This document shows positions 5,039-54,408 of a DNA stretch of 64,000 nucleotides, in pieces; position 1 is the stretch's first letter; each line of letters begins with the position of its first letter. The notes under the pieces are model-generated. The model had not been told where the DNA came from, searched no databases, and saw nothing but the letters and a program-made list of their open reading frames with translations. The stretch lies in assembly GCF_020520425.1 (NCBI RefSeq), contig NC_079490.1:38820723-38884722 (forward strand). Reading direction: 5' to 3'. The DNA comes from Spinacia oleracea. Lineage: Eukaryota > Streptophyta > Magnoliopsida > Caryophyllales > Amaranthaceae. A program made the translations under genes and the position numbers.

Positions 5039-5134
5039 AACTCTACAACAGCAGGACTCAGCAGTAGCAGCAGCTACAACAGCAGGACTCAGCAGTAGCA
5101 GCAGCTACAACAGCAGGACTCAGTAGTAGCAGCA
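5039..5134. repeat. Three tandem 31-base units (ctacaacagcaggactcagc...)
   Basis: Three almost identical units beginning ctacaacagcaggactc follow each other. Only one base (cagcag to tagtag) varies in the third. The flanks contain related CAGCA-rich sequence. Confidence 0.9.
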
Positions 5135-5925: not shown

Positions 5926-6169
5926 TTAAAGTGAAAATGTTCTGTGGGTTCAGTAACTTTACCAACCTCGTGCTTGTGTGGGTGTGTTTTTATTTATGTG
6001 TGCATTTGTAATACTTTCCCATTTCTCAGATGGACTGTGAATCTGTGATCTATATTTCTTCCCAACCAGTTGTCATTAGAGTGCTACGAGAGGTTTTTCC
6101 AGCAATTAAGCTGCCCTATGTGTCCCATCCTGATTCTAGCTTAGATATTTTCTTTTATCTTTCATCCAG
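5926..6169. other. Likely retained intron upstream of the LpxB-derived exon
   Basis: The tract ends in ttcatccag, a good splice acceptor, immediately before LpxB-like coding sequence. It is open in one frame from 6,030, but that translation does not resemble the family, which fits an intron. Confidence 0.45.
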
Positions 6170-24200: not shown

Positions 24201-24647
24201 AAAATAATCATATTCTACATCTGTGTCATAGGCCACGGGTTCCTCAATCCATTCATCATCCTCTCGTGCTTCTAAATTTGGGCAATTGGGAGGCATATTA
24301 ACACTAAATGCTGATCTTAATATCCCTCCTATATTATCTCGACCTACAAACCCACTTTGGTTATCAAGGGATCCTTCACTAGTAATCCCTCCATCACTCT
24401 CAAAAATACGCTGAAACGTATCCCCTTTACCATGAAAAATCCAATCCTTAAATGGCTTATAAAATCCCTTAAACAAAATATGCCTCTCCACTTCATTTAC
24501 GGAGAACCATTTCTCTACCTTACAGTTCTTACATGGACATCTAATTTTTCCTTCGACTAGATCTTGCTTGGAAAACTCAATAAATTCCAAACAACTGTCG
24601 ACATATTCACGATGACCAGTGGGTAGATCGATCAAACTTTTATCCAT
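21240..24647 (-). pseudogene. TNP2-type CACTA transposase, disrupted
   Basis: The chosen start is ATG at 24,647, giving MDKSLIDLPTGHREYVDSCL and an IRCPCKNCK zinc motif, the Transpos_assoc N-terminus. The TNP2 core (Transposase_21) follows, with CPNNCMLYW, CHVCGTSRW, PSDGLAWKAFDE, then GYAMLFGLSIKGYNSCPIC. Next come a DUF4218-like part (KSHDNHVLMQDILPVALRA, WMYPIER) and, across introns at 22,187-22,273, 21,808-21,886 and 21,625-21,701, a DUF4216-like tail (YGDYKVVLFRCDWVEIHRGV). Defects: an in-frame TAG at 23,394-23,396, a frame change near 22,770, and TAA at 21,400-21,402. TNP2 is the catalytic transposase acting on the CACTA ends. Confidence 0.9.
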
Positions 24648-27600
24648 ATCTATACGAAATTAGCAGAGTAATTAGTAATATACGTCGGTCGTAGAATAGG
24701 AAATTTTTATATGTACTTATTAAAATATTATGATCATTCTTAGAACCTTGATATATCACACGAGATTAATTTAAGTCACATAACACCTCCGTACACAACT
24801 CTTCTTAATTCATACCATAACTTATGGTTTTTTATTTAATCATTCTTCATTAATGACTAATATTTGTTATCTATCTTCATCTTCTAAAATTTATTACCCT
24901 CTATCACTTCCATATTATATTTTCTTTTTGCGTACAAGATGATACTTTAAACTTCACATGAATTTGCAAGGAAAATAAAGCATGTGATTTTAGCGCACAA
25001 GGTGATACTTTAAAATTCACACGAAGACAACATTATAAATCCATTTTTAAAAGGAGTAAGAGTACCTTAAGTAACGTGGCATCACATAATCAGAATTTAT
25101 GGTAAAATTTCTTGAATTAAATGTAATTCAGCTAAGCAAAATTATGAAGTTGGGATAATGTAATTAGACAAAAATACCAACACAAAATGCCAAAGCTAAC
25201 AAAAACACCTACTTACAAATTTGAAGCTATTATATCAAAACATTTGAAATTAAATCAACAGGAATACAATAGAAAGATCCAACTTTTGCATGATTGACGT
25301 AAGTTAAGATAGCACAATAAACGTCAGTATATGCTCATTGTATATATATTAGACATCGAGGAAATGTAAAGCCACGGAAATTATATTCTAACACTTAACA
25401 AACCTAACTTGCAGAGTTGTAGCCCACCCTTGTCCATACAAAATTAGGGAAATAACAATTGTCCAATAAAAAACCTAAAACGGACTTTATAGTATACATA
25501 CCTCTAGTATCAAAGAGTAGATGCAACGCACGAACCGATGCACGAACCTACGAACAAAGCTAAAGACTCGCAGGAAACCTTGAACCGGTGTAGCAACGCA
25601 CGAACCGATGCATGAACCTACGAACAACGCCTACCAAACATACAATTTAAGAATTTAATCAGTCACAACAGAGGAAAACCAATTCCATGTAACTATTTCA
25701 ACCAGTACGGCTCCAACAATCAATCAAAGACCTAAAAAGGTTAAAAAAAATTAAACTTTCCCATGCATTTTCAAATAAGCAAAACCCAACATATGCAACC
25801 AAACAAAACTTCACTTTTATCATAAAATAGCTACAAAATTGCATTCATAAGCTCAACAATCTTAATGAAAAAGAATCAAAAATATGATTGTATTATTATT
25901 TTTTGGTTGTATCATATCTCAATTGTATCTGATAATGTGATGCGATCTCGCAAGGCACCCAGATTGCAATTGCTAAAGGATGGCAAAAAGTCATTGTGTG
26001 TTCAGATTCTAAAAAAGCTATATCAAGATTGAATCAACCATCCATTCTGATCAATTCAACAGTCCTGATCATATCAGTTCTGATCAATCCTGATCAGTAC
26101 TGATCAGAACTGATCTGATCAGGACTAATCAGGATTGATCAGAACTGATATGATCAGAGTTGATCAAAACTGATTTGATCATCACTGATCTGATCACAAC
26201 TAGGTGATTGTTGATTCTGCAGAAAATACAACAGAAAGATCCAATTTTTTTCTTTCAGATTTTTAATTTAATCGGTGAATAGCAACAGCAAGTCAAGGAC
26301 TTGCTCCTAACAGTATATTGGCAGCAGATTAGCAGAACAGAACCAAACAGAAAATCCGATCAAAGCCGCAGATAAGAAGAACAATATTCAGAGCAACGAG
26401 CATTAGCAATTCAACATCACGAGAATAAGAGAAATCAAACAATCCAGGAGTTTCAACAAATTTACAAAAACACCAAATATCATCCAACTCATTATTTAAG
26501 ACTAACGTGCCATAAAATTCCAGGAATTAGCAAAATTCGTTTCTATAAAACAAAAATAAATATCATCCAGCTCATTATTCAAGGAAGACCTTAGTTTCTG
26601 AATGCAACATCGTCTTTTGTTTCATTGACCATTAAGAGGAAAGCTACAAATACACAATGCTTATTCAAGAACTTGAAGACATGTGTTTTCAAAACATTAA
26701 AACTCAATCTTAGGTGTGAAAGAAAGCTGCTAAGTATTGTAAAACACGAGTCTAAAAAAATTAGAATAGGACAGGTTTATTACTATGAGATGGAATCAAA
26801 AGCAAGCCCCCACCCCAGCTAGATATTGCCTACACAGTTCATGCACTCACCGACAAATGTTCACTTCCAAGCTGCAAAGAGAGTGGTTACACCATCAACA
26901 ATCACTACAAGAAGCCCATTTATATTATTCTTCTTTCTGTCAATTTCTATTTATTGCATTTCATTTTGTGGACTGTCATGTAATGACAGCTTTTCTTAGT
27001 TTGTCCTCTAACATTAGCTGCCTAAAGTAGTGACGTCATCGTAGAATCAGGGTTAAAATTTTGTGTGTGCAGACGCCTATAAGACGTCACTAAGCTTGTA
27101 ATGTTCAGATTGAATAAATATATCAATGAAACGGAAACAAGCACAACTCTGCCTCTATATTGTCATATTCATGCCCACATTGCTTTGATGTTCAATATAT
27201 GAACGCAACTTATAAAGGAAGGGCAGGAGAGAAAGATCGAGCTTTTTTTAGTGGAGCACCAATAGCTGTTAATTCGAATAAAAGGGTAGTGAGTTTCTTA
27301 ACTCTACTAGTTAGAGTTTTCTTCTAACTCTAGAGGATCTGAACCTATGCATAAATAAACAGCCTTTGTCATCAATAAGAGAAATATTTGTTCACAAGGA
27401 TGTTGCCACTAAGTTAAGCAACTGCCTCCAGGTAAAGTATTCGTAGGATTGTTTTACATCAAAGGAGAAGCTATCAACGACACAACAACATTGGCGGTAC
27501 ACGGTCTATTCACTTGTATACTTCCGTCCTAATATGATAAAATTGAAGATCTGGTGCACATGTGTTATGCAATAATATTAAAGATAACTAAATAAAATAA

Positions 27601-30004: not shown

Positions 30005-30106
30005 CTAGTGCGCACAATACCTAACCAGCTATCGTATGCACTTAACCCCTTATTATTTTGGTAAGAAATATTGTAAAACTACAATCATAATTGAATATAT
30101 ATATAT

Positions 30107-30532
30107 TGTTCCGGTGTTGTAAATATGGAAACAATGGGCTTCGAATGAAGGCCCTTTCGTATGTGTTGAAGATCTTGCTTGTTTGAGTGAGTAGAGTCCG
30201 AATTCACCTGCACAAGAGCAAAGTCACTAGCCTCGGGGGTGTTTCCGAGGAAAGCCCCTCCGATGCCTAAGTAAGAACGATGCTCGGATTCTAGAGAGAA
30301 GTTCTCTAGAAGAGTAGTCTTAAGGCGATAAATTGGACGTACCTTGAGGTGTGAGCCTTGGCGGCCTATTTATAGTGTTTGCATAATAAATGCCCATAGG
30401 TCATTTATTGCTTTTGGGCCTTGGGCCTTAATGGATGGCTGACTAGCCATTGGTAGGTTTGATGCTGTTTGTTTAGAGCCATTGGGCTTTGGACTTAGTG
30501 GCCCAATTGAGAATCAATTGGGAGCCCAAACA
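30107..30532 (-). repeat. 3' LTR (426 bp)
   Basis: TG...CA bounded; I found no difference from 40,805-41,230. Minus-strand TATA box CTATAAATAG lies at 30,365-30,374. Confidence 0.93.
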
Positions 30533-35439: not shown

Positions 35440-38400
35440 TCATACAAAATATTTCTTGAGAACATCGGTATTCCAATGGTTCTTCAAAATTGTTCCATCT
35501 AACTGTTTCAGCATAAACGTGCCTGGCCTTTTTTCGGAATGGATGATGTATGGTCCTTCCCAAGTGGCTGAGAGTTTGTCATGGATCCGTCCTTTCTGAA
35601 CCGAGGCGGCGTTTCTGAGTACTAGATCACCGACTTTTAGGGGTCTGGCGTTGACTCTTCGGTTATAATGCTTGTTGACCCTCTGTAAATAGGCTGCGTT
35701 GAGTGTCCTTGCGTCGTTCCGAGCTTCGTCCAGTAGATCGAGAGCTTCGGACAGAAGTTGGTTGTTGCTTTCTCCTTGGAGCCCATCATACCTGTTGTAT
35801 GCCTGGATCCTCAGGCTTTCTGTTCCGATTTCCACAGGGATTACAGCTTCGGATCCATATACAAGGTGGAACGGTGTTTGCCCGGTAGCTTCTTTCTCAG
35901 TGGTCCGAAGGGACCATAGCGTTCCGGGTAGCTCTTCTAACCACTTGTTTTTGTCATCCTCGACTCTTTTCTTGAGTGCATTGAGGATGAGTTTGTTAGC
36001 ATCTTCGGCTTGCCCGTTGCTTTGTGGGTGACACACTGCCGAGTAAGCTAGGTGTATGCCGAACTGTTTGCACCACTTTTGCAACGGGGTGTTGTCGAAC
36101 TGTTTCCCGTGGTCGAAGACCATCAGTCTTGGTATGCCGAACCTTGTGATGATGTTCTGCCATATGAATTTGCGGACCTGAGGTTCGGTGATGGAGGAGA
36201 CAGCTTCGGCTTCGATCCATTTGCTAAAATAGTCGACTCCTACAATCAACCACTTCTTCTGGTTCGTCGCTGAGGGGAAGGGACCAATGATGTCTAACCC
36301 CCACTGTGCGAATGGTAAGGGATACAGTGTTGATTGTAGGGTTTGAGCTGGTTGATGGATGGCTGGTGCGAACTTTTGGCATTTCTCGCATTTCCTTGCC
36401 ATCTGCTTTGCCTCGGAAACCATAGTGGGCCACCAGTACCCAGCCCGAAGGGCTTTATGTGCCAATGTCCTGCCTCCGATGTGGTTTCCGCATATCCCGA
36501 GGTGGATTTCCCTTAGGATGTAGTCAGCGTCTGTTGGACCCACACATTTTAGCAGCGGAGCAGAGAATGATTTCCTCATGAGCTCTCCTTCGGCGCTGAT
36601 GATGAACCATTTGTTGAATCTTTTCAGTTTTCTCGCCTGCAGCTTATCTTCGGGAAGTTCTCCCATTTCTTTGTATGCAACTACTGCGTCCATCCAGCTG
36701 GGTTCGGTACGTAAACTGCATACTGTGGTGGGTAGCAAGTCAATGCTTCTCTCTTGGTGAACTTCCACGTGGACCGACCTGTTTAGGTCGATGAGTGTTG
36801 AGCTTGCGAGTTTTGACAGTGCGTCTGCTTGCGTGTTTTGTCCTCGGGGGATGAGGATGACTTCAAAGGATCTTAACTTTGACGTTAAGGATTTAATTTT
36901 TGCTAAGTAGGCTGTCATGATGGGCCATTTGGCCTCATACTCCCCTCGGATCTGGTTGGCTACAAGCTGGGAATCAGTTTTGAGGCAAACATGCTCGGCC
37001 TCCAGGGATAAGCAAAGCTCTATCCCTGCGATTGCGGCCTCATATTCGGCCTCGTTGTTAGTTGCTTTGAAGCCGAACTTTAATGCATACTCTATGCTTT
37101 TCCCCGTCGGGGGGATTAGTACAACTCCTGCTCCTGAGCCGTTTATTGTGGAAGATCCGTCAGTGAAGACCTCCCAAGTGCTTTTCGTATCATCCAGCAT
37201 TTCCTGGTATGAGCACTCGGCCAAGAAGTCTGCCAATGCTTGTGCTTTGATTGCTGTCCTCGGCTGATATTTGATGCCGAACTCTGATAGTTCGAAGGCC
37301 CAGGCAGCCAATCTTCCTGACCTCTCTATTTTGTCGAGTACTTTCTCGAGCGGTTGGTCAGTTAGTACTGTGATCTGGTGGGAGTCGAAGTATGGCCTCA
37401 GTTTTCGTGCAGCTACCACTACTGCATATGCGACTTTCTTGATGAGCGGGTACCGGGTTTCGGCCCCTGTGAGTGTTCGGCTGGTGAAGTAGATTGGCTG
37501 TTGCTTCTTTTCTTCTTCCCGAAGAAGCACTGCGCTGACGGTTCCAGGGCTAACTGCGACATATAGGTACAGGGTTTCCCCCTCCTTTGGTCTGGCCAGT
37601 GTCGGCAGTTGAGCTAGGTGGGCTCTGAGTTGCTGAAAAGACGTGATCAACTAGCCTCTGGTAGGTGGCTCCGGCATTTTTCAAGCCGAAAGGCATCATT
37701 TTGTAGTTGAACACTCCTGCGCTTGTGATGAACGCTGTCTTTGCCCTGTCATCGGGGTGCATGAATACTTGGTGGTAGCCTGAAAAGGCATCCATGAAGC
37801 TGAGCAGTGCATGGCCGCTGGTGGAGTCAACCAATTGATCTATCCTTGGCAGGGGATAGCAGTCTTTGGGGCAGGCTCGGTTCAGATCTGTGAAATCCAC
37901 GCACATTCGCCATGAGCCGTTCGCTTTTTTGACCATCACCACGTTGGCCAGCCACTTCGGATACATGCATGGTTCGATGAATCCGGCCTCTTGCAACTTT
38001 TTCACCTCCTCGGCGATGGCTTTGTTTTTCTCCGAGGAGTAATTTCTCTTTTTTTGCTTGATTGGCCGAGCTTCAGCGTTGACGTCCAGCTTGTGACAAA
38101 TCAGCTTCGGATTTATCCCTGGCATATCTGCTGCTGACCATGCAAAGATGTCTTTGTGATCCCTGAGTAGTCGGATCAAATCGATTCGGAGCCCCGAGCT
38201 TAGGCCCTTGCCTATTCGGACGCTCCTGTCTGAATTATCTTCGAGGAAGATATCCTCCATTTCTTGATCTGGCTCAGGAGACAGGGTTTCGGGGCGAGCA
38301 TCAACTTCTGCGGGAGATAGGCTGCTCGTGCTTGCTCTTCTCCTTTTTGCCTCGCTTTCCTCTCCCGTGGCTCCTTTTTCTTCCTCGGGGCCGTCCCCTA

Positions 38401-39025
38401 GTTTGGGCTTTCGGACAGCAGTGTGGCAGGTTCTTCTCGCCACTTCTTGATCACCTCTGATTCGTTCGGCAAATCCTGCATCCGAGACGTATATCATCAG
38501 CTGATGGTATGTGGAGGGGACTGCTTGCATCTTGTGAATCATGGTTCTTCCCATGATTACGTTGTATACGGAGTCGCAGTCCATCACCAGAAATTCGTCC
38601 CGAAGGGTTTTTGCCGCCTGGCCTTCACCCACTATGACTGGTAGGGTGATCTTTCCTCGAGGGATAGCTGCGGATCCGTTGAATCCGATCAGAGGATAAC
38701 TGACTTTCGTCAGTGCTTCCTCTGATTCTTCGAGGATCAGCTGCTCGAAGCAGTTTCTGAAGATGATATTGACGGCACTTCCTCCGTCGACTAACACTCG
38801 ATGTACGTTGTGGTTATTGAGGTCCATGGAAATGACTAGAGGATCGTCATGTTTGTACTGGACTCCGAAGCAATCATCAGCAGTGAAGGTCATGTTCGGG
38901 GGATGTGGCTGGTTGTCTCCCACCGCGCTGAAGTTGACCCGATGGGAGAGGGCTCTTAGGTGTTTCTTGCTAGCCTGGCCAGACTTCTGTTCCCCGAACA
39001 CTACTAGGATGTCGTTTTTCTTGTG
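35440..39025 (-). pseudogene. pol of the Retand-like element: protease, truncated reverse transcriptase, RNase H, integrase
   Basis: The first part (37,550-39,025) has a protease motif VLVDGGSAVNIIF and the N-terminal RT region (RMCVDFTDLNRACPKDCYPL, SFMDAFSGYHQV, MPFGLKNAGATYQR). Near 37,645 it joins, out of frame, to a segment (35,440-37,650) that normally lies well past the RT catalytic site. The YxDD motif and thumb are missing, a deletion of perhaps 300-400 bp. The second part has a remnant Ty3 RNase H, an archaeal-type RNase H (FTDGSS, NNEAEYEAA, TDSQLVANQ, QADALSKLAS) and an integrase with HHCC zinc finger (CEKCQKF), D (GLDIIGPF), D (FDHGKQFD) and E (QSNGQAED). No chromodomain is seen. 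The protein cannot reverse transcribe. Confidence 0.9.
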
Positions 39026-40790
39026 TCATGTTGCTTCGTAGACCCTCTTCTGGGGTTGCTCATGTTGTTTGCCACTGGCGGCCTTTTCTTTTTCCTCCCT
39101 TCGGTCTAACAAGTACTGTTTCAGGTAGCCTCGACGAACGAGGTCCTCAATGTTGTCTTTCAGCGAGTTGCATTCTTCGGTGTGGTGACCGAAGTCATCA
39201 TGAAACTCGCACCACTTGTTCTTGTTTCTCCGAGCTGGGTTGGACTTGAGCTTCCCCGGTAGTTTCCACTTTTCATCATTTCTGTTGAGGCTAAAGATCT
39301 CTTTTCGGGGCAGAGCTAGTGGAGTGTAGTTAGTGTATTTGGGTTGAAGTTCGCCCCTTCTCCCGTCTTTCTTCGGGCTCATCTCTCTAGCTCCTACTTT
39401 CTCTTTCCCTTTCCTTGAGCTGCCCTCGGGCTTGCTCTGGGTATTCTTTGTGTCTCTCGGATCCGACGATCCTTTCAGTCTTGCAGCGGCCTTGTTGAAC
39501 TCTTCAGTTCTGATGAACGCATCAGCCATTTGGAGCACGTCAGCTATTCTGGAGGGGTTCTTCATTGAGAGTTCGTCACGGAACTTCCCCTCCTGGAGCG
39601 CGTGCTTCAAGGCGAAGATGGCCACGTCTGGCTGCAAGTTTGGTATGTTTGTTGATTCCTTCATGAATCTGGCCATGAATTCTCTTAGACTTTCGTCTCT
39701 TTCTTGTTGGATTGAGGTCAGTTCTGCTGTGGTTCGCTCGGGGCGATTGTTGCTCACGAACTGTGTGCAGAATCTCTTTTTCAGCTTTTTCCAGCTCTTG
39801 ATCGATCCCTTCGGCAGCGATCTAAACCACTCTCCTGCCACTCCAGTTAGCGTGGTTGGGAAATATTTACACCAACATGCTTCGGAGTAGGGACTCAGGA
39901 ACATTTGCTGCTCGTAGGAGATGACATGATCCCTCGGATCTGTGATTCCGCTGTAGGTTAGGTGTGCTGGCAGTCTTACCTTCGGTATTTCTTCCATGAT
40001 TAGCTCGTCCGAGAAAGGGGATGACGTGGGAGTCATGATTCTTTTCCCGAGTCTAGCCCTGATGCATTCGTTGCCGAGGTTCTGTGATTAGAACGTTCGG
40101 GCGTACGATGGGGGCTAGGGGTTCGATCATGCCTCCTGTCTCTTCTTCTCTCTCGGCTACTGACCTCGGGTCGTTCGCCAGATCTGCTTGGCTCGCCTAC
40201 CCCGAGTCTCGTGTGGATCGAAGGTCTTAACCTTGAGTGGACCGAGGGCCTCAACCTGCTGAGCACCGAGCTTCGGATCCGAGTGTTACGAGTAGTCGAT
40301 TCGCTTTGGAGAGCTGTTGGAGTAGGCGATGGTCTTGCAAACCAATCTGGCTGTTGTTGTGCCCTTTTTTGGGTGTCCCACGTGCTTTCCATCCATCTCG
40401 ACGTCAAGTGAGTTCCTGTCAAGGGGAGGAGCTCTCTTTCGGGTCTGGACACTTCTACACTGGGTTGTTCGTTCAGCCTTCGCCTGGTCCTCCTTTCTTC
40501 TCTGCGGTCGTTTGCCAATCCTTGCTGCTTCTCATTGAAGAGGAAGTTTTGCATGATGGTCATGGCCGCAGTGAGCTCTTCCCCAGTTGGAATCGGAGGT
40601 CATGCGTTTGTGGCGGTCATAGCTCTGCTTGGCTGTGACCTCGCCATCGATTGAGGGTGCTCCTCTTGGTCAGATTCTGAATCTGACCGCACCATCATAT
40701 CGTCATCATTGTTGTTAATAGCATCATTAACCATTTTCGCGAAAAGAGGTGATTGATGTCTTTCAAAGGCTTTGAAGTGTTCTTCCCCAC
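39026..40790 (-). pseudogene. gag region of the Retand-like element
   Basis: An N-terminal leader frame (from ~40,790) has an acidic stretch and is ended by TGA at 40,600-40,602. It resumes in the same frame to 40,033 as an Arg-rich segment with RLRPSVHSRLRPS repeats. A +1/-1 frame change then leads to the capsid-like Retrotrans_gag part (39,026-40,036) with EWFRSLPKGSIKSW and a zinc-knuckle-like HDDFGHHTEEC. It ends at TGA 39,026-39,028, after which pol continues in the same frame. The two TGA codons are consistent with CGA to TGA changes at methylated CpG. Gag forms the particle that packages the RNA. Confidence 0.82.
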
Positions 40791-40804
40791 AGACGGCGCC
40801 AAAT
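40785..40804 (-). other. Primer-binding site of the Retand-like element
   Basis: Minus strand reads ATTTGGCGCCGTCTGTGGGG directly after the LTR end. The TGGCGCCGTCTG type is common in Tat-lineage elements; the priming tRNA was not determined. Confidence 0.75.
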
Positions 40805-41230
40805 TGTTCCGGTGTTGTAAATATGGAAACAATGGGCTTCGAATGAAGGCCCTTTCGTATGTGTTGAAGATCTTGCTTGTTTGAGTGAGTAGAGTCCGAA
40901 TTCACCTGCACAAGAGCAAAGTCACTAGCCTCGGGGGTGTTTCCGAGGAAAGCCCCTCCGATGCCTAAGTAAGAACGATGCTCGGATTCTAGAGAGAAGT
41001 TCTCTAGAAGAGTAGTCTTAAGGCGATAAATTGGACGTACCTTGAGGTGTGAGCCTTGGCGGCCTATTTATAGTGTTTGCATAATAAATGCCCATAGGTC
41101 ATTTATTGCTTTTGGGCCTTGGGCCTTAATGGATGGCTGACTAGCCATTGGTAGGTTTGATGCTGTTTGTTTAGAGCCATTGGGCTTTGGACTTAGTGGC
41201 CCAATTGAGAATCAATTGGGAGCCCAAACA
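40805..41230 (-). repeat. 5' LTR (426 bp)
   Basis: Same sequence as the 3' LTR. TATA box at 41,064-41,073 on the minus strand (CTATAAATAG) would drive the genomic transcript. Confidence 0.93.
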
Positions 41231-41512: not shown

Positions 41513-41788
41513 TTTGAAAATAAGAATTTATGTTGCCTGAAATAGTATCACGTACTTGACCTAAATATGTCTTATTTATTTATTTTTGTAAGTACGTACA
41601 CACATGCATAAGCTTAGCTGGTTTCCTATGTTGATGGATCAACACCTAAATTGGTAACAATAAACACTATTTGGTCCTAACTAATTTGTCCTTTAATTTT
41701 ATCCTAAAATTTCAAACTTATGGTACTAATTAAATGGTGTTATAGAGTGAAGTGTTTATCAAAAAGGTCGGCTTAGGCCGTACCTAAT
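41513..41788. other. Flank with left MULE target-site duplication
   Basis: No gene. The last nine bases, gtacctaat at 41,780-41,788, recur at 54,290-54,298. Confidence 0.8.
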
Positions 41789-41890
41789 TATTTACACTAT
41801 AGTAAACCTGGTCCATGCTATGGACCAGGGTATTATAGTCTTTGCGTTGTTGCGTGCGAGAAGTTGTTTGTAACTGTCACGTGCTTTCCT
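41789..41890 (+). repeat. Left MULE terminal inverted repeat
   Basis: Starts tatttacactatagtaaac, then cctggtccatg and atggaccagggta. It matches the reverse complement of 54,180-54,289 with gaps. Confidence 0.75.
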
Positions 41891-42074
41891 AATTATATAT
41901 ATGTTTTTTTTTTAATTTCCTTTTTCCCGGCTTTTGAACTTCTCACTCAACTTCTCTCTCTAAACTGTTTCCCAACTTCTCTCTGAATTTCTCTCTCCAT
42001 TTCAAATTTAATTTCAGTGATTATTTTCATCCATTTGCATCAAATTACTCTTCCGATCTTCTTTTTTCTAAAAA

Positions 42075-45000
42075 ATGGTGAAGAAAGCGGCACCGAAGAA
42101 TCCGGCAGCGAAGAAACCGGCAGCGAAGAAACTTGAATTCGACAATTCCGTCGCTGAAATGGCTGTTGAAGCTCCTCGAAGGCGAGGAAGAAGGCCAAAT
42201 GCTGTTTCTGAAGAAATTCCTGGTAATTCGAACTTATTTTTTGTTTGATTTTGAATTATTGAAATGTTTGTGGTTTTTGCTGAAATTAGGTTTAGTGTTT
42301 TATGCAGTTACTGTTTCAAAGATATAGTTACCTTTTATTTGCTGTTTCTGAAGAAATTCCTGTTAATTCGAACTTATTTTTTGTTTGATTTTGAATTATT
42401 GAAATGTTTGTGGTTTTTGCTGAAATTAGGTTTAGTGTTTCATGCAGTTACTGTTTTAAAGATATAGTTACCTTTTATTTACTGTTTCTGAAGAAATTTC
42501 TAGTAATTCGAACTTATTTTTTGTTTGATTTTGAATTATTGAAATATTTGTGGTTTTTGTTTGAAGTTACTGTTTCAAAGATATAGTTACTTTTTATTTT
42601 ATGTTACGAAGTTTTTAAGTGTTTTTATTAGTGACTGGTTTGTTCGTAGTTTTTTAGAGTAATTATATTTTTAAAAGGTTACTATATTTCTAAAACAGTA
42701 ACTATGTTTTTAAAATAGTTATTGTCTTTTTAGAAAGTAAATTAACTTTAAAATAGTAACTATGTGTTATAATTAGTTACTATCTTTTTTAGAAAGTAAA
42801 TATAACTTTAAAACAGTAAATATGTGTTATAAATAGTTACTGTGTTTTTAGAAAGTAAATAAACTTTAAAATAGGAACTATGTGTTATAAATAGTTACTA
42901 TCGTTTTTAGAAAGTAAATATAACTTTAAAACAGTAACTATGTGTTATAAATAGTTACTATCTTTCTTAAATGTTATTATAAAATTAACAGTTACTATGT
43001 ATAATAAATAGTTACTATCTGATTTAAATGGATACTCTATGTTTATGTATTTATTATATTATTTGAAAGGTTACTATATGATTTTATTGGTTACTATGTG
43101 ATTGTAATGGTTACTATATAGTAATATTTTGTTTTATAATTGTTTTGTTTCAGTTGCTAAGGAATCTGTGTCTATAAAGAAGAACAAAAAGGCTGGCAGT
43201 CCGAAATCAAAAGCAATTGCGCTTGTATCTGAAAAAGAACCAATTGAAGAAGAACAACCTAATCAACTAGTTTTACAAAATTCTTCTCTGGTTGACGTTC
43301 CACAGCCTGAATCTCATCAACTTCATTCACAAGTTTTGAAAGAAGTTGGAGCTGATGGCCTGCCTATCGTGTAAGTGTTAGTTTAATTTAGTTAATTGTT
43401 CTAAATAGTTACTATATGTTCAAAATAGTTACTATGTTCTAAATAGTTACTATATTTTTTTAAATAGTTACTATATGTTGTAAACAGTTACTATATGATT
43501 CCAAAGGTTACTATATGTTGTAAACAGTTACTATATGATTCCAAAGGTTACTACATGTTTTAAATAGTTACTATATGATTCCAAAGGTTACTATATGTTT
43601 TAAATAGTTACTATATGTTTTGAAATATGTTCTAAATAGGTTCTATGTGTACTATGTTTACAATAGTTACTATATGACTCCAAAGGTTACTATATGTTTT
43701 AAACAGTTACTATATGTTCTAAATAGGTTCTATGTGTACTATGTTTACAATATTGACTATATCAAAGGTTACTATATGTTCTAAATAGTTACTTTATGTT
43801 TTAAACAGTTACTATATCTTCTAAATAATTACTATATGTTATAAATAGGTTCTATGTGTATGTGTAGTATAGGTACTATATTATTTGAAAGGTTACTATA
43901 TGTTTTAAACAGTTACTATATTTTCTAAATAGTAACTATATATTTCTAATAGTTACTACATGTTTTAAACAGTTACTATGTGTTCTAAATAGTTACTATA
44001 TGATATATAAAGCTGACTTACTTTCATTATTCATTTTTTTCAGGTTTAATTTTGATACACAATGTTCAGGAGGATCATTGTGTAAATTAATTAAAGACTT
44101 CTCTCCTGATCAAAAGGCAGCTGTTCAAGAGATAGGGTTTGGAGGATTGTTAGGCCTTCAATTAAGTCGAAAAAACACTCAGATGATGTACTGGTGCATC
44201 AAGTGCTTTGATGGTGTGAGTTCTCTGTTTACAATCAGTGATTCCAAGCAATTTGAAATCACTGATTATGATGTGTACGATTTGTTTATGCTCCCCCTTT
44301 CTGAGCTGGAGGTTGAAGGGGTTAAACGTGGGCGCAATTCCACTAATCCTGATTTTGATTTGAAGATCAAGTGGAGAAAAGAGTTCGGTTTTGAAGAGGT
44401 CAATGCTCAAATTCCTATAAGGTTGCTTGAGGACAAGATTAAATTGTTGACAGATGGTGGTGATCTGTTTAAACAATTATTTGTTTTTGTTGCTTTCTCT
44501 ACATTTTTTACTCCAACAGCCAATAGGACTGTAGATTTGAGATTGGCTAAGGCTTTGGAAGATCCTAAAATGATTTCCAAATACAATTGGTGTAAATACG
44601 TTCTTGACGTATTATGTGAGGAAACAGTGAAATTTAAAAATAGTTTATTGAAAGGCAAAGATCAAAAGACATTTGGAGGCTGTGTTGTGTTTTTGCAACT
44701 TGTGTATTTTCAGAGGATTAAGTTTAGGAATTCCAGTGGTATTCCTGATCAATTACCTCTTATTCAGCATTGGACATCGAAGATGGTAACCGATCGGATT
44801 CATGCTGAAAATGCCAATATGAGTGCATTATATGGTTCTGGTATATTGGAGAAGGGGAAGTATCCAATTTCCAAAAAGTTTGTTTTTGTTGATGGTCAAA
44901 TAGATTTGACCCAAATCAAATCTATTTCGAAAGAAAATGAAGCAGGCAGCAGTGGGGGAAGAGCTGAACAGCCCTATGTTGGGCGTCGAATTCCAAGTCG

Positions 45001-48000
45001 GCGTCCTAGGATTCTTCAGTTTGAAATCCCTAATTCTCATCCTACAGATGAAGAAATTTTCTCTAAAGCCACTGATGTAAGTTTATTTTATTATTGATAT
45101 ATTTGTCAATATATAGTATAGTTATTTTTTATATGCTATAGTTATCTTTTATACACTATTGTTATCATTATCTTTGGTTTAGTAAATGTAGGTATATATA
45201 ATTATCTTTTATATTCTATAGTTATCTTTTCTGTACTATAGTTATCTTTCACATACTATGTTACCATTACTTTGTTTTAACAAATAGTAACTATATGTTT
45301 TAAACAGTTACTATATGGTATAAATAGTTACTATATGTTTTATGTACTATAGTTATCTTGTGTATACTATAGATATCTTTTATATACTATAGTTACCTTT
45401 TATTTACTATAGTTATCTTTTATTTTCTATAGTTATCTTTTATATTCTATAGTTACTTTTCATATACTATAGTTAACTTTTATACAGTTATCTTTATATA
45501 CTATAGATACCTTTTCTTATAATATTTTTTGTATTTTTAGTTAAATTTTCATATTATGTTCCATATTTAAATTTATGTATTTTGTTATTAGGATTTTCAT
45601 GGTCAGTGGTTGTTGATGAAGAGAGATCTGGATGTAGTTTCAGCCATCCATGCTGAAGAGCTGTTCAAATTAAAGGCTTCAATGCCTTCGCAGAACCATG
45701 GCGATGATATTTTGGAAAATTCCACTTATCAAAAGATGGTTGATGAGTTGGTGGAGATTCATCAGTTGGTGAAGAATCTACCAAATGGTTGGGATGACAT
45801 TTTTGGTTCAAGTAACAATCCAGTTGTTACTGCTGCCCCTCAACCTTCTGCCGTTGTTCCAACTGAGCCTGCAGTTGTTACAGCTGCTGTTGTTGATGCA
45901 ACAACATCTACCGAAGCAATTATTCGAGAAGTTGATCCTGACACTCAAATAAATGCAGTTCTTGATTCTTTGAAAAGCAAAGATAAAGAAATTACGGAGG
46001 ATGATGATGAAGAAATAGAAGAATATGAGCGCGTGTGGGCTGGATTTCAAAAATGCATCATTAACAACCATGCTGTATCAAGAGTGAATGTCAGTGTCTA
46101 TGGCATAGAGGAAAATGTGATGTTTATGTCTCCGTTTATGATAGCATTTGAAGATTTAATGAGGCATCTTCCAGCATTTGTTCAAGAAGCTGTGGACTTT
46201 GCTGCTCTGACTGATGGAGAGGGTATTTTGACTGAGTAAGTAGAAGTTTTCTCATTTAATAATTTATAGTTACCTTTCAAATAATATAGTTACCATTCAT
46301 ATATTATAGTTACCTTTCATATATTATAGTTACCTTTCATATAATATAGTTACCTTTCATATAATGTAGTTACCTTTCATATAATATAGTTACTTTTTAT
46401 TATTTATAGTAACCCTTCATATAATATAGTTACCTTTCATATAATATAGTTACCTTTCTTAAAAGTGAAGTTGTTGCCCTAACTTTATAGTAACCTTTCA
46501 TATAATATAGTTACTATTTGTATACTATAGTGTCCTTTTGTTTACTATATTTACCTTTTATATTCTATTGTTACCTTTTATTTATTATAGTAACCTTTAT
46601 AATTCTTCTGACATATTTATTGTTTCTTTTTTATGTTTTTCAGTGATAAAGTTATAGAATACAATCATTTTATTGCGGTAGGAAGAGATGACATGTGGAC
46701 CCTTCCTTCCACATTTGATATTCTTTTGATTCATATTGAAGCTTGGGCTTTTTTATTGAATGAAAATGAAAGGAATCCTGCTGGTTCTCCTCAGAAGCTG
46801 TTTTTAGGTGGCACATATTGTGTAAGTTATATTTTTAATAATATAAAATGTTAATTATTTTAAATTTTTTTGGCCTTTGTTTAATTTTTCTTTTAATATT
46901 GATTTGCAGAAATATGTTGCTGATTTGATTGAGAAACCAGGCAATGAAAAAATCTTGTCTGAATTGTGTGTTTGTCTTAATTATGGTGTGAAAGATGTAA
47001 ATGGAGTTCAATCGTTGAAAGATTGTAATATGGTGTGATTTATATTTTCTTTATATAACCATATTATCTTCTTTTTTTTGTCTCCTTTCTTGTAGTTGTA
47101 ATCTGTTGTTTTTCTTTTTTATATAGATTTTTGCTCCTGTTCTGATTGAAGACCCGAAGCATTATTACCTGTTTGTCATTAGTATGAAAGACAAAAGTGT
47201 CTATTTCTTTGATAATATGCTTCTGGAACCAAAAGAGATGGAACAAAGGAAGAAAGCTTATTCTGTCTTGGTAAGTTTTTTTTATAGTTACCTTTTTTGT
47301 TGTTGTAGTTACTCTATAAATGTTATAGTTACCTTTATATTAGTCTTTCTTTTTTAGAGGAACTATATTTTTGACAAGGTTACTATTTGTATAAAACAGT
47401 AACTATGTTTTTAAAATAGTTACTATCGTTATAAAATAGTTACTATATGATTCCAAAGGTTACTATATGTTGGTAATGGTTACTATATGATTTTAATGGT
47501 TCCTATATGATTCTAATAGTTACTATATGATTTTAATAGTTACTATATGATTTTAATGGTTACTATATGATTTTAATAGTTACTATATGATTTTTAACCA
47601 ACTGGTAATAGTTACTATATGATTTTAATAGTTACTATATGATTTTAATTCTTACTATATGTTGGTAATAGTTACTATATGATTTCAAAGGTTACTATAT
47701 GTTGATAATACCTACTATATGTTTTGTACAGTGTTCTTCATTGGAAAAACTACTGAAAAATATGGATAACATTCATCATGAAGATATTAAAAGCTTCAAA
47801 TTTATCCCGATCGGTGGTAATTGGAAGCGAGGTGCTTATGACAAAGACTGTTGTGTCTATTTGATGATGTTAATGATGGTTTTTCATGGTGTTGAAACGG
47901 TACAAGATGGTGTTGGGATTTTTGACTTTGATCCCTTGGCAGATGTAAGTTTTTGTGTTAAAAATAATTAATGTTATTCATATTTTTCTTTTCATTCTTT

Positions 48001-48426
48001 ATAGTTATTGTTTTGTTATCATAGTTACTGTTTTTATTCTAATAGTTACTGTTCAAATATTTGCAGGAAGATTTCAGGAAGTTTCTCAGGGCTTGTATTT
48101 GTGGCACCATTGTGTTGTCAGATTTGAATTGTTACAGAGATGAATATCTGAAACGAATGGTTGCATTCAGGAAATACAGGAAACAAGATGTTTTGGATGC
48201 CCTAATTAAACAAAGGGAAGAGTTGACGCAGAAATACATGAATGATGCTTCAAAAATTGAAATTGTTGCAAGAAATAGTTCAGCAAGGAAATCCAAACAT
48301 GTTGAAACAGAAGATGAAGCTGAGACAGATGTCAATGTTGAAGGGAAAGGACGTGGCAAAGGCGGGAGACGCACCCGAGGAGGCAGACGCGGGAAGGCAC
48401 GTGGACGAGGTGCTTCACGTGGTTAA
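42075..48426 (+). CDS. ULP1/C48-like protease-domain protein carried by the MULE, 9 exons, 1,019 aa
   Basis: Exons 42,075-42,222, 43,154-43,370, 44,044-45,076, 45,592-46,235, 46,644-46,821, 46,910-47,032, 47,127-47,270, 47,732-47,944 and 48,067-48,426 all have GT/AG borders and sum to 3,060 nt without a stop. The N-terminus is Lys/Ala-rich with an AT-hook-like RRRGRRP. The C-terminal third has the C48 pattern: His ~793 (DPKHYYLFV), Asp ~810 (SVYFFDN), Cys ~869 (YDKDCCVYLM). The usual DCG is DCC here, and the oxyanion Gln is not obvious, so activity is uncertain. The tail is RGG/GKGRGK-rich. C48 enzymes remove SUMO-type modifiers; the role in transposition is unknown. It runs tail-to-tail with the transposase gene. 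Confidence 0.87.
42200..42590 (+). repeat. 140-bp tandem triplication across the exon 1 donor of the ULP1-like gene
   Basis: Three copies beginning gctgtttctgaagaaattcc start at about 42,201, 42,341 and 42,481 (the third shorter). Each includes the end of exon 1 and the start of intron 1. Copy 1 has the donor ctggtaatt; copy 2 has ctgttaatt; copy 3 has ctagtaatt. Confidence 0.92.
42600..44043. repeat. AGTWACT motif arrays in introns 1 and 2 of the ULP1-like gene
   Basis: Dozens of copies of atagttactat, agtaactatg and gttactatatg, spaced mostly 10-25 bases. Exon 2 (43,154-43,370) between them has none. Confidence 0.93.
45077..45591. repeat. AGTWACT/ATAGTTATC motif array in intron 3
   Basis: Repeated tactatagttatctttta and tagttactat units. 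The variant here is tagttatctttt more than tagttactat. The exons on both sides lack it. Confidence 0.9.
46236..46643. repeat. ATAGTTACC motif array in intron 4
   Basis: Units of atataatatagttacctttc repeat about every 20 bases. The motif variant is fairly uniform within this intron. Confidence 0.9.
47271..47731. repeat. AGTTACTATATGATTTTAAT array in intron 7
   Basis: Ten or more near-identical units tactatatgattttaatag in direct tandem, 20-21 bases each, among looser copies. Confidence 0.9.
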
Positions 48427-49424
48427 TAATTATTGCTGAAAAAACAATTTAATTTTTTGTGTTTGTATGTAGTCGAATTACTACTTAGAATGTACAATTC
48501 TAAGTTTGATATAGTTACTGTTCAAATATTTTTTGTGTTTGTATGTAGTCGAATTCTAAGTTTGATATAGTTACTCTCAATGATTTTTAATTGTTTGATA
48601 TATGAGAGTAATTATAACTTTTGCAGTATTTGTGTGATATTGTTCAATTTACTTATTTTAAATATAGTTTCTATTTGAATGAAATAGTTACCTTTCTTCA
48701 AATATAGTTACTCTTATAAATTTGTAAGTCATATGATGGCATAACGAAAGTTACTATATTATCAAAATAGTAACTATATTTTATATAGAGTTACTATATG
48801 TAAAGAAGGGTGACCACTAAATGTGAAGAGTTGGTATATATAAAAAGTGAATAATTTTGTGTATAAATTCAAATAGTTACTATCTTACAGATATAGTTAT
48901 CTTTAATAAGATACAATTACTCTCTTTTTTATGGTATTTTATTTTTGAGTAACATATAGTTACTATAAGTCATTTTGATTGCATAAAAAACGTTACTATA
49001 TTTTTTTAGAATAGTAACTATATTGTTCTAAGAGTTACTATATTTTTTAAATAGTAACTATATTTTATAAAAAGTTACTATATTGTAAAAAAAGTAAGTA
49101 TATTTTATAAAGAGTTACTATATTATCAGAATAGTAACTATATTTTATTAAGAGTTACTATATTGTCAAAATAGTAACTATATTTTATAAAGAGTTACTA
49201 TATTTTCAGAATAGTAACTATATTGTATTAAGAGATACTATATTGTCAAAATAGTAACTATTTTATAACGAGTTACTATAAATAAAAATTGTGTGTTTAT
49301 AAAGAGTTACTATACTGAATGTATAGTAACTATGTATTGTAAAGGAGAACTATAGTATAAACACTCAATAAATTTGTTTAAAAATGTTGAAGTAACTGTA
49401 TATGATAATAAAACAAGAACATCA
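48427..49424. repeat. Intergenic AGTWACT array between the two convergent MULE genes
   Basis: Regular alternation of agttactatattgtc and aatagtaactatattttata, giving inverted pairs roughly every 40 bases. This is where the two transcripts would end. Confidence 0.9.
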
Positions 49425-52400
49425 CTAAAATAGTTGTTCTTTAGGTATAAATAATTGAATATTGGGTGTCTTGGATCCAAATTCTTTGTGTTTCTTTTTT
49501 CCTTTCTTTGATGGCTGCTTGTAATTGTCATATTGACCCTTTATTCTCTTCTTACTCTTTCCTTTAGTATTAGCACGATCAGGATCAAGCACAATTGTTA
49601 TTTCAGAATTAGTTGATTCCCCGTCTTGTGTTTCTCGTTGTGCTTCAGCTTTTGCCTTTTCTTGTTCTGCTATCTTTGCAGCTTCTTCTTTTGCCTTCCT
49701 TTCTTCTTCCTTTTTTATGATTTCATCAACTGCTTTATTATCCATTTTAAACTTCTCCTCGATAAATTTTCTGGCCTTTGCTATCTTATGCCCTTTCAAA
49801 ATTAAGTTATAGTATCTGTGGTATAGAGTTTAAGTGTTAAGTAAAATATCAACTGTAATTGTAAATATATGAAAATGAACTAATGTATATTGAAAAAATT
49901 ACCTTCTGATCATATGTAATCTCCAACCAGTAAAATTGTTGATTTCACCTTTCTCCCTTTTTATTGTATCAACCCTTTCCCATATCTGTTTCTTTGCATA
50001 TCTAGTCCATCTTGTTGTTATGTAACGATCTGGAATTGTATTGATTGAATGTATATGCAATATTCTTAAACAATGGAAGCACAACCATCCAGATTCTTCA
50101 AAGTTTTTGCATGTGCAAGTGACGGTTGAATCTTCCATTTTGTATTGAACTTCTTGCCTTGATCCTGTTAGATTATTTACATATAATGTAATATTATTCA
50201 AAAGAACATCTACTCTAAATAATAAATAAAGATTTATAGTTTTTTTACCTGTTATTCCTTCTATCCACACTTCAAAAAACATTGTTCTTCCTACACTTCC
50301 CTTGAACATTGTACTACTTGCCACAGAAAGCTTGAACTCTTCTTCAAAATCACGAAAAAGTGTTATCGTGTATACATTTGCTGCATGTTTTAATATAGCA
50401 CTCATACTTAGCTCTGAAGTTGGTATTCCCCTTGTACAGTCAAAGTCGTCTTTTTCTTCGGTTTTTCTCCATCGATTTATTGTAGCTTGAAAAATACTAT
50501 AGAACTCTGTTAATGTTGTACTTTTATTTGCTTTAAAACCAACAGCATGGTTTGTACTTTCACTTCTTTGTGAAGAAAGTATACCGGCAGAAAAAAAATC
50601 TTTACTTAAAGCTGTACACCATTTTTCTTTAAGACCATACAATCTGTTGAACCAGTCATCTTTTTCCAGCTTAAAAGTGTTGATCATAGATTTCCAAGTT
50701 TCTTCAAAATCATTTGGTGTTATACACCCACTTAAACACTTGTAGAATGCGTTTTTGAAGTTTTTATCAGACTTCAATAAACCAAACCTACTGTTTGCAT
50801 TTTTACTCAAGTGCCACAAGCATAACCTGTGTCTTGAAGAAGGAAAAACCTGAAAAACAATAATGAATATATATAGTTCCACAAAATAGTAACTATATTT
50901 TATAAAGAGTTACTATACTTTATAAAGAATTAGTATATTGTCAAAATATTAACTATATTTTAATAAGAGTTTCTATATTTTCAAAATAGTAACTATACTT
51001 TATAAAGTGTTACTATATTGTCAAAATAGTAACTATACTTTATAAAGTGTTACTATAATTTTAGAATAGTAACTATATTGAATTAAGAGTTACTATATTG
51101 TCAAAATAGTAACTATATTTTATAAAGAGATACTATATTGTTAAAATAGTAACTATATTTTATAAAGAGTTACTATATTGTCAAAATAGTAACTATAATA
51201 TATGAAGAGGTACCTGTTCTATTCCAGCAGCAATAGCTGCATCTTGATCAGTGAAAATTGATATAGGATGCTTTCCTCCCATAGCCTTCAGAAAAGTTTC
51301 AAACACCCAAACGAAAGATTCTGTGGTTTCATCCCCAATGAAAGCACAAGCAAACATTGTGTTTTTCCAATGGTTATTGATACCAACAAATGGAGCACAT
51401 ATGAGATTGTACTTATTGGTTCTGAATGTAGTATCAAAAACTAGAACATCTCCATATATTTTGTAATCTTCTCTCATCATAGAATCCCTCCAAAATAGGC
51501 ACTCAACTTTTCCTTCAGCATTGAGTCTTACTCTGAAAAAGAACTCGGGATCTATTGATTGTATGTCATACAGTTTGTTCACTAGTGTTTGTGAATCCTT
51601 GCCATCAATTTGCTTCATTTTTAACTTGTAGCAGTAGTTTAGATGATCAATCATCGTATGACCTACACAGTCGTCTCCGCCAGTTTCTGTTGACATATAC
51701 CTATAAGACTCCATTGGTCTTAGACCACATTCTGACATTGCCTCAATAGCTTCTTTTTTAGGTTCTGTCATTTGTCGTTCCGATCGGTGGAGATAATTAC
51801 TTATTTCTCTTGTCAATGGGTGATTATGTACCACTACATGCTTTTCTATTTCAAAATCTCCATTTTCATTCTTCTTTGCAAATATTTGAGCTTCACATTT
51901 TGTTCTTGTTATCATAACCCTCTTTCTCCTTTCTTTCTTTTTTGCATCTGATTGATCATCTTCATTTTTGAGTTCTTTGTTTTTAGGAGGGTCTCTTATT
52001 CCAGCAGCAGAGCAGTAGAAGTATTTTCCATTAACAATTGTGGTTCCTTCTTTATATCTATTCTTCCCTTTTCGTACACTAAAACCAATAATAGCAGCAT
52101 GTTTGCAATATAGATCATAAATCTCATCGGTTGTTTTCCTTGCTTCTCCAATTAAACTGCCATCTAATTCTTTATCAATGTTTTCTTCCTGCTCATTATT
52201 TGGATTTTCAAAGATGTTGTGGTTTGTATCAATTGAATGTATTATTGAACCTGTACAAATACAAATATAGTTATCATTAAATGTGATAGTTACTCTTAAT
52301 ATTTATATAGTTACTCGTTATATTTTATAGTTACTATATAATTAACATAGTTACTTAGGATCTATTGATTGTTATAGTTACTCTACAGTTAATATAGTTA

Positions 52401-54074
52401 TTCTTTATATGTTATAGTTACTATAAGTTAAATGTAGTTTATTGCTTATATAGATTATTTCGTTATGTGAAGTTACTCTATAATTAATATAGTTACCTTT
52501 CATAAATTATAGTTACTTTATTATAAATATAGTTATCATTATATGGGATAGTTACTCTTCATTTTATACAGTTACTGTTTATATATTATAGTTACTCATA
52601 GTTAATATAACTCCTTTTTATATGTTATAGTTACTCTACAGTATATAGTTCTTCTTTATATGTGATAGTTACTCTTCATTTTATATAGTTACTTTTTATA
52701 TGTTATAGTTACTCTATATTTAACATTGTTACTTAAGATCTATTGATTGTTATAGTTACTCTACAGTTAATATAGTTACTCTTTACATGTAATAGTTACT
52801 CTATATTTAACATACTTACTTAGGATCTATTGATTGTTATAGTTACTCTACAGTTAATACAGTTATTCTTTATATGTTATAGTTACTATAAATTAAATGT
52901 AGTTATTTCTTATTTATATTATTTCATTATGTGAAGTTACTCTATAATTAATATAGTTACCTTTCATAAATTATAGTTACTTTATTATAAATATAGTTAT
53001 CATTATATGGGATAGTTACTCTTCATTTTATACAGTTAATGTTTATATATTATAGTTACTATAACTCCTTTTTATAAGTTATAGTTACTCTACAGTATAT
53101 AGTTCTTCTTTATATGTGATAGTTACTCTGCATTTTATATAGTTATTTTTTATATGTTATAGTTACTCTATATTTAACATTGTTACTTAAGATCTATTGA
53201 TTGTTATAGTTACTCTACAGTTCATATAGTTACTCTTTACATGTAATAGTTACTCTATATTTAACATACTTACTTAGGATCTATTGATTGTTATAGTTAC
53301 TCTACAGTTAATACAGTTATTCTTTATATGTTATAGTTACTATAAATTAAATGTAGTTATTTCTTATTTATATTATTTCATTATGTGAAGTTACTCTATA
53401 ATTAATATAGTTACCATTCATAAATTATAGTTACTTTATTTTAAATATAGTTATCATTATATGTGATAGTTACTCTTTATTTTATATAGTTACTGTTTAT
53501 ATATTATAGTTACTCACACTTAATATAACTCTTGTTTATATGTGATAGTTACTCTACAGTATATAGTTCTTCTTTATATGTGATAGTTACTCTTCATTTT
53601 ATATAGTTAGTCTCCATAGTTTATAGTTACTCTACAGTTACTATAAGTCCTGTCTATATGAGATAGTTACTCTACATTAAACATAGTTTCTCTTTGTATG
53701 TTATAGTTACTCTGCGTTAAATATAATTCCTCTTTCTATGTTAGTTACACTACTGCAATTATAATATGTTAACTATATCAATATAACAGTTACTATATAT
53801 ATATTAAAAGATACTATATCATACCTTCTTCAATACATTGATTTGCAACCATAACTTGCTGAGATGTGCCTTCATCTTCATCTTCAACATCATATACTTC
53901 TCTATGATTCTCAAAGTTTTCTAAAATAATAATAATTACTCAATGAGTATGAAAGTTACTATAATTTTCTTCGTAGTTAGTTATTAGGATTCGAATATTG
54001 CCGTCATAATTATACAATTTTTCTTCTATTGCGCGATTTAAATCGATATTCAAATCGATTAAATCGTCCTCCAT
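49425..54074 (-). CDS. FAR1/FHY3-type MULE transposase with SWIM zinc finger, 6 exons, 833 aa
   Basis: Exons on the minus strand: 54,074-53,960, 53,920-53,825, 52,250-51,214, 50,849-50,249, 50,164-49,903 and 49,815-49,425. They have GT/AG borders and sum to 2,502 nt with no stop. Domains: acidic N-terminus; FAR1 DNA-binding zinc domain ~113-216 (LYCKHAAIIGFSVRKGK, YFYCSAAG, TKCEAQIF, HNHPL); MULE DDE domain with Asp ~343 (VFDTTF), Asp ~405 (FTDQD), C/H at 426/429 (HRLCLWHL) and Glu ~513 (QRSESTN); SWIM finger C633-x-C635-x9-C645-x-H647; Lys-rich coiled tail. FAR1-type proteins derive from such transposases. It should bind the element's ends and cut. The spliced frame is intact, suggesting an autonomous source. 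Confidence 0.92.
50850..51213. repeat. AGTWACT array in intron 3 of the transposase gene
   Basis: About eight 40-bp units alternating agttactatattgtcaaaa and tagtaactatattttataaa, the same higher-order unit as in the intergenic array. Confidence 0.92.
52251..53824. repeat. Intron 2 of the transposase gene: AGTTACTCT motifs in three ~463-bp tandem copies
   Basis: The marker acttaggatctattgattg occurs near 52,345, 52,810 and 53,272, with long near-identical stretches between, giving a ~463-bp period. Each copy is itself made of tagttactctat / tagttacctttc motif variants. Confidence 0.9.
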
Positions 54075-54179
54075 TGTTGAAGCTCGAAGAGAGAGAAGCT
54101 GTTGGAGGAGAGAGAAGCTGTTGTAAGAGAGAGAAGCTGCTGCTGGAGGAGAGAGATTTCAATTTTAGGGTTTCGCGCA

Positions 54180-54289
54180 TTCTGTTATTTTGGAACACGT
54201 GATTTCAAACGGTTCAGCGCTGCAAATTACCTAATTACCCTGGTCCATGGTAACCTTAATGGTGGACCGGGTCCATGCAAGCGGAATTG
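54180..54289 (-). repeat. Right MULE terminal inverted repeat
   Basis: Contains taccctggtccatggtaacc and ggaccgggtccatgcaagc, the inverted counterpart of the left end, followed by gtacctaat. Confidence 0.75.
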
Positions 54290-54408
54290 GTACCTAATAC
54301 CTATTGGCTAACATAGAGGAGAAGTGTTAACTATCGAAAATAATATAAGTTTCAATTCTATATTGTAATCGTATCGGTCGATTGACAATGAGAGGCCGGG
54401 ATAACATG

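Follow-up and report, generated by a model that had tools for sequence, protein, structure and literature searches.

In a 64,000-bp stretch of the Spinacia oleracea genome (contig NC_079490.1, positions 38,820,723 to 38,884,722 of the forward strand; hereafter the window, whose own numbering is used below), we found an intact, young Mutator-like element (MULE) with two convergent genes, one predicted to encode a FAR1-type transposase and the other a ULP1-like protein. Its non-coding DNA is filled with a dyad-symmetric motif, AGTWACT, repeated mostly on a 20-bp step, which is nearly absent from exons and flanks and recurs in transposase-free elements elsewhere in the genome. We consider it probable that the element is an autonomous MULE of the FAR1/Jittery type whose DUF1985-like/ULP1 protein is a VANC-like anti-silencing factor acting on the element's own AGTWACT lattice. 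A MULE bearing a ULP1-like gene is already known; what is new, as far as the parts of the literature covered by our search show, is the pairing of a VANC-like 20-bp lattice with a transposase of the FAR1 type.

Boundaries and genes of the element

An earlier note on this DNA had claimed a perfect 9-bp duplication around the element, and GTACCTAAT was indeed found exactly on both sides (Table 1), the repeat stopping at 9 bp with no extension to 10 bp. However, in a chance control some 9-mer was common to 60 of 400 random pairs of 190 × 190-bp windows, so a single shared 9-mer is modest evidence, and the decisive evidence for the boundaries was therefore taken from other copies. Long terminal inverted repeats (TIRs) were not found, only an interrupted inverted similarity of the two ends starting 17 bp in, whose score was reached by none of 2,000 random pairs over 60 bp and by one of 2,000 over 110 bp. 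MULEs without TIRs are also counted in the superfamily (PMC6446971). The ends carry a conserved palindromic sequence of their own (terminal GGTCCA palindromes), and the right-end core GGTGGACCGGGTCCATGCAAG had 278 genome-wide matches with at most one mismatch, the backwards control giving 0. Within the 64-kb window, no further copies of the element were found.

Both genes are predicted to splice by GT/AG rules to uninterrupted frames of 1,019 and 833 codons, as the earlier note had it. The chains were reproduced by trying junctions within 8 bp of chosen places for the ULP1-like gene and within 14 bp for the transposase gene, and neither is unique, the former allowing six open chains (1,017–1,021 codons) and the latter four (825–833 codons). 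The transposase matched the Pfam families FAR1 DNA-binding (E 1e-14), MULE (PF10551, 1.5e-27) and SWIM finger (2.7e-4), as well as ZSWIM1-3 RNase H-like (6.1e-11), and no MuDR-type DNA-binding family was among its Pfam matches up to E 1. Residues Asp343, Asp405 and Glu465/466 fit what we take to be the DDE pattern. The DDE transposase domain and target duplications within the 8–11 bp range in all copies with two ends place the element in the MULE superfamily, and the FAR1 domain, core transposase and SWIM finger place it, by domain content, with the Jittery/FAR1-type MULEs.

The ULP1-like protein matched Peptidase_C48 over the Pfam cut-off (E 4.1e-6, residues 774–880), the match spanning only about 107 of its 1,019 residues; His793, Asp810 and Cys869 are placed as in the ULP1 triad, an assignment that we presume. 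The start of the protein is rich in lysine, alanine and proline, and its tail in arginine and glycine. A 140-bp unit in 2.6 copies (42200–42559) repeats the end of exon 1 of this gene, splice donor region included, on into intron 1. For one exon of each protein NCBIfam gave no match, and sequence search of the PDB returned no credible relatives of the element proteins. No third gene model emerged, the two models covering the listed long frames with domain or splice support; a small third gene is possible.

Table 1. Features of the element in window positions
Feature	Position	Strand	Description
Complete element	41789..54289		12,501 bp, two convergent genes; target-site duplication and common ends in copies
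Left target-site duplication	41780..41788	+	GTACCTAAT, exact 9 bp
Right target-site duplication	54290..54298	+	GTACCTAAT, exact 9 bp
Left end	41789..41838	+	17 unmatched bases, then hairpin-like ACCTGGTCCATGCTATGGACCAGGGTA; same end in other copies
Right end	54230..54289	-	17 unmatched bases, then ACCCGGTCCA...TGGACCAGGGTAA
ULP1-like gene	42075..48426	+	predicted, 1,019 amino acids, 9 exons, stop codon included; Peptidase_C48
ULP1-like exons 1–5	42075-42222, 43154-43370, 44044-45076, 45592-46235, 46644-46821	+	predicted
ULP1-like exons 6–9	46910-47032, 47127-47270, 47732-47944, 48067-48426	+	predicted
ULP1-like exon 3, with DUF1985-like stretch	44045..45076	+	stretch at residues 219–314 of the protein, under Pfam cut-off
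ULP1-like intron 1	42223..43153		motif array, 19 centres
ULP1-like intron 2	43371..44043		motif array, 23 centres
ULP1-like intron 3	45077..45591		degenerate array, AGTTATC units, 5 centres
ULP1-like intron 4	46236..46643		array with AGTTACC units, 13 centres
ULP1-like intron 7	47271..47731		motif array, 17 centres
Spacer between 3' ends of both genes	48427..49424		motif array, 26 centres, both orientations
Transposase gene	49425..54074	-	predicted, 833 amino acids, 6 exons; FAR1, MULE, SWIM
Transposase exons	54074-53960, 53920-53825, 52250-51214, 50849-50249, 50164-49903, 49815-49425	-	predicted
Transposase intron 3	50850..51213		40-bp two-site units, 12 centres
Transposase intron 2	52251..53824		largest array, 50 centres

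A 20-bp motif lattice in the non-coding DNA

In a motif-free count of 6-mers in the non-coding DNA of the element, the most enriched were AGTTAC (145 against 11.2 expected) and AGTAAC (149 against 12.7), both parts of AGTWACT. Counting as a centre any AGTWAC or GTWACT, that is, AGTWACT with one end base free, we found 169 centres in the 6,939 bp of non-coding DNA, two in the 5,562 bp of coding DNA and 31 in the 51,499 bp of the window outside the element; for the full AGTWACT the counts were 126, 0 and 2. The flanks of eight other copies contained 21 centres in 30,893 bp. Among 158 neighbouring pairs of centres, 90 were exactly 20 bp apart, about two helical turns, and 121 fell on a multiple of 20 bp, give or take 1 bp. 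The motif occurs in both orientations, mostly in one, and in 31 of the 90 exact pairs the central base differed while the dyad spacing stayed, so it is the dyad axis and not the strand that keeps the step. When 14 repeat units, chosen from 49 Tandem Repeats Finder rows with one 40-bp unit halved, were compared with AGTTACT on either strand, ten matched at 7/7 positions, three at 6/7 and one at 5/7; among 3,000 random units matched in composition, 12 reached 7/7. Arrays that share the core differ in the remainder of the unit.

The spaced word is also abundant genome-wide. AGTTACT-N13-AGTTACT occurred 4,095 times (1,928 + 2,167) against 17 (7 + 10) in the backwards control, and AGTTACT pairs 12–41 bp apart occurred 9,900 times (4,690 + 5,210) against 897 (432 + 465), the exact 20-bp step thus making up 41% of such pairs. 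In a hand tally of 100 pairs listed from the first part of one chromosome, the step was 20 bp in 50 cases and 40 or 41 bp in 35.

Copies and relatives of the family

The spinach genome (894 Mb, in which the window is G000:C4:38820723-38884722) was searched for relatives. A transposase exon had at least 40 long matches at 98–100% identity (the best 40 of 294 candidates) and the left end at least 40 matches at 89–100% (the best 40 of 111 candidates). We compared the window copy with ten others, ranked 2 to 11 among the 39 others listed. Both ends were in the fetched stretch for nine of the 11, the window copy included; the other two, c02 and c05, each carry an insertion, and left-end matches were listed farther out on the same chromosomes. 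The earlier note had expected related copies with 9-bp duplications and matching ends, and these exist: all nine two-ended copies are duplicated at their targets, each differently, eight as exact 9-mers at the same boundary and one (c11) as an 11-mer displaced by 2–3 bp. Eight of the nine are 12.16–12.52 kb long, and c03 is shortened by deletion to 4,414 bp.

The seven other full copies differed from the window copy at 0.27–0.73% of aligned bases. The ULP1-like frame was open in four of the eight full copies and the transposase frame had neither stops nor frame changes in five, c09 and c10 among them; both genes were open in the window copy and c04. Splice dinucleotides of both genes were intact in six of the eight, c09 and c10 each having one altered site in the transposase gene. 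The ratio of non-synonymous to synonymous differences (pN/pS) from the window copy was below 1 in 12 of 14 comparisons (small counts, stop codons left out), and the value for c11 was 1.07 in both genes. Variable columns among full copies numbered 71 of 5,562 in coding DNA, 17 of 501 in the terminal parts and 5 of 353 in short introns, and array gains and losses of 20 and 40 bp separate the copies. Judged by these comparisons, the family is a recently mobile or active one, and domains, ends and related copies agree with the earlier description of an intact two-gene MULE with a ULP1-like gene. Its description of that gene as cargo proved too small, since the gene makes up over half of the coding sequence (3,060 of 5,562 bp), its pN/pS is below 1 in six of seven copies (small counts) and the element is full of the periodic motif, on which the note is silent.

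The note had also named empty sites as a check. The joined flanks of the window copy matched only themselves in the genome search. Those of c03 matched seven other places at 71–76% identity, of which five continue past the junction (query 113/114) to 132–200, a result that we count in favour of the element and its activity; the other two, at G000:C6:28539804-28539917 and C1:98142988-98143102, stop at 116, no more than 3 bp from the junction. Expanded arrays were rejected as the source of the extra 2.8 and 1.9 kb in c02 and c05, which are inserted foreign sequences. These insertions (L009/L010 and L015/L016) are unrelated to each other, both lie in ULP1-like exon 8 within about 15 bp, and that of c05 has inverted ends of about 280 bp.

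The lattice is not confined to coding copies. Three clusters of spaced pairs away from coding copies were taken from the matches listed (L033, L034 and L035), and all three had the right end of the family. L033 contains a 3,728-bp element (2577–6304) with both family ends and the duplication TTAGATTAT; it gave no significant match to the transposase, and all that it shows of the ULP1-like protein is a 36-residue trace (E 0.004). This element holds 48 centres against seven in the other 5,772 bp, 25 of the 47 distances between its neighbouring centres deviate from a multiple of 20 by at most 1 bp, and parts of its arrays are 66–78% like those of the full element. L034 and L035, known by the right end alone (84% and 78%), gave no coding match up to E 0.01 and contain 29 and 20 centres in 7.5 kb; they are perhaps separate non-autonomous subfamilies. 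An older relative, L032, is 82% identical in amino acids to ULP1-like exon 3 and 75–95% to pieces of the transposase, and has 83 centres in 10 kb. In seven non-coding stretches aligned with the window copy, its cores were 79% identical (458/581) and its spacers 63% (572/904); the stretches were paired by eye, and the alignment of repeats may be anchored by the core itself.

Relation to known systems

The earlier note had linked the element to the Kaonashi (KI) MULEs. The likeness is real in that KI/KIU elements also lack long TIRs and have a ULP1-domain gene opposite to the transposase; however, KI-MULEs carry a mudrA transposase (PMC2528002), and three genes are ascribed to the KI group (PMC13317346), whereas the spinach element has a FAR1-type transposase and two gene models. 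We rejected Kaonashi membership on the type of transposase. Jittery-like MULEs with ULP sequences, from melon and grapevine, have already been reported; they share the Jittery-side transposase and the ULP region, and differ in that the section of PMC2528002 on them mentions no periodic motif arrays.

A close parallel by description is with the Arabidopsis pairs VANDAL21 (Hiun)/VANC21 and VANDAL6/VANC6, which likewise have degenerate ends, a second gene and a short motif dense in non-coding DNA (PMC5735166; PMC10398659). YAGTATTAY is the motif recognised by VANC21, and AGTTGTCC/AGTTGTAC has been associated with VANC6; in the elements to which they belong, both motifs are concentrated chiefly in non-coding DNA (introns, intergenic and terminal parts), often as tandem repeats (PMC5735166). 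VANC proteins carry a DUF1985 domain (PMC5735166; PMC10398659), and some VANC genes contain a Ulp1 domain according to a 2026 review, which cites Sasaki 2022 (PMC13317346). The spinach motif, dense in non-coding DNA but scarce in exons and in the rest of the DNA, resembles the kind of array that a VANC-type protein targets. The spinach system differs in its word, AGTWACT, with a 20-bp step and both orientations, in its weak DUF1985 match and in an anti-silencing role that is here a deduction. Eudicot VANC proteins have reportedly gained and lost domains including Ulp1, and motif sequence, density and helical periodicity are said to set their specificity (Sasaki 2022, EMBO J).

A possible self-recognising anti-silencing system

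In the account that we favour, the FAR1–MULE–SWIM transposase would move the element and make the 9-bp duplications. The ULP1-like protein would be expressed from the left end and bind the dyad-symmetric AGTWACT lattice in cis and in sibling elements, displacing silencing from the MULE family and its non-autonomous relatives; with silencing gone, the transposase would be made and act on the ends. By analogy with VANC, we infer that AGTWACT is bound by the ULP1-like protein and not by the transposase or a host factor, that binding may remove methylation, and that the protease fold may contribute. The chances seem about even that the FAR1/Jittery branch, outside the VANDALs, evolved or inherited self-recognising anti-silencing of the VANC type, and that a dyad word on a 20-bp helical lattice serves a whole clan of elements, both autonomous and transposase-free, in one genome. 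The parts of the sources that our literature search covered, the motif word itself not having been searched, mention no VANC-like system for a MULE of the FAR1 type. Few transposons are known to have a system that undoes host silencing of their own family. Here a single genome holds the candidate protein together with its presumed motif and spacing, intact copies of young age, and natural arrays that vary in spacers and density, so that the rules (the part of the protein that reads the motif, the 20-bp step and the protease fold) are directly testable outside Arabidopsis.

Several observations weigh against this account. The DUF1985 match is below the Pfam cut-off both for the whole protein (E 0.023) and for exon 3 alone (0.0075); exon 3 alone also matched PMD (E 0.04), and an inexact reversed control of it gave no match up to E 10. 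The likeness of the ULP1-like protein to VANC is one of published description. VANDAL transposases (VANA) are of the MuDR type, whereas that of the spinach element is of the FAR1 type, and there is no vanB gene model. In two sister loci, related to each other (amino-acid identity in exon 3 about 41% in one comparison, 43 and 46% in another), GTYACTA words are sparse; most lie in presumed introns and a few in presumed exons. A few word pairs there are 21 bp apart, and a 222-bp duplication raises the count at one of the loci, L029. L031, a locus of another kind that ranked first among the DUF1985 matches in the genome (at least 149 matches; best 150 of 893 candidates), has no AGTWACT word in 10 kb and carries small arrays of other units, e.g. 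of 18 bp. A few listed AGTTACT pairs have other steps, 13 or 17 bp. A regular 20-bp step alone is also expected from tandem duplication, and the core shows no constraint among young copies (31 of 1,169 core columns variable against 102 of 4,839 spacer columns, p = 0.27). The pairs at the 17-bp step are at G000:C1:14136223-14136263 and C1:14145164-14145187.

The arrays might instead be binding sites of the transposase, or of its FAR1 domain, that aid end assembly or promoter activation, a role played by subterminal repeats in plant transposons such as Ac and Spm. The transposase does have a FAR1 DNA-binding domain, and arrays are retained where coding DNA has been lost; this rival is the strongest because the arrays of the 3.7-kb non-autonomous element (L033) come close to its ends, with sites within about 80 and 106 bp. 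However, the full element has one site in its first 286 bp and none in its last 215 bp, most sites being in introns and the central spacer, and the ends have the palindromes of their own, so that we regard transposase binding as unlikely. Neutral minisatellites, produced by slippage in introns and bound by no protein, would account for the many tandem arrays, the 20- and 40-bp gains and losses between copies and the lack of core constraint. They would not be expected to share a core and a 20-bp step while differing in the rest of the unit, to keep dyad spacing when a site is flipped, or to leave four introns of 84–94 bp with no centre and the exons with two; non-coding relatives also retain an end together with arrays, and the core is better kept against L032, with the caveat on that alignment noted above. 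We therefore think this explanation quite improbable. That the ULP1-like gene encodes a protease for SUMO or a ubiquitin-like protein, acting in transposition or host evasion and unlinked to the arrays, agrees with the Peptidase_C48 match and with the presumed triad residues, and yet strikes us as the least credible of the three, a long shot: most of the protein lies outside the C48 match, a gene linked to motif arrays is what VANC systems show, and Kaonashi proteases were judged unlikely to act on SUMO (PMC6117577).

Surroundings of the element

Every other transposase or pol gene of the window had been called broken, which fits in so far as a Gypsy gag-pol and a CACTA tnp2 are each spread over several frames, a scan that covered eight of the 19 long frames listed outside the element and in which introns are possible. 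The Gypsy-type element (35440–40087, minus strand) has gag, reverse transcriptase, RNase H and integrase matches over several open frames, and 428 bp beside it (40803–41230) are repeated at 100% identity at 30105–30532. The CACTA tnp2 transposase, with DUF4218, is on the minus strand at 22234–24659. A direct repeat of about 1.37 kb with 95% identity links 10301–11676 and 14589–15947.

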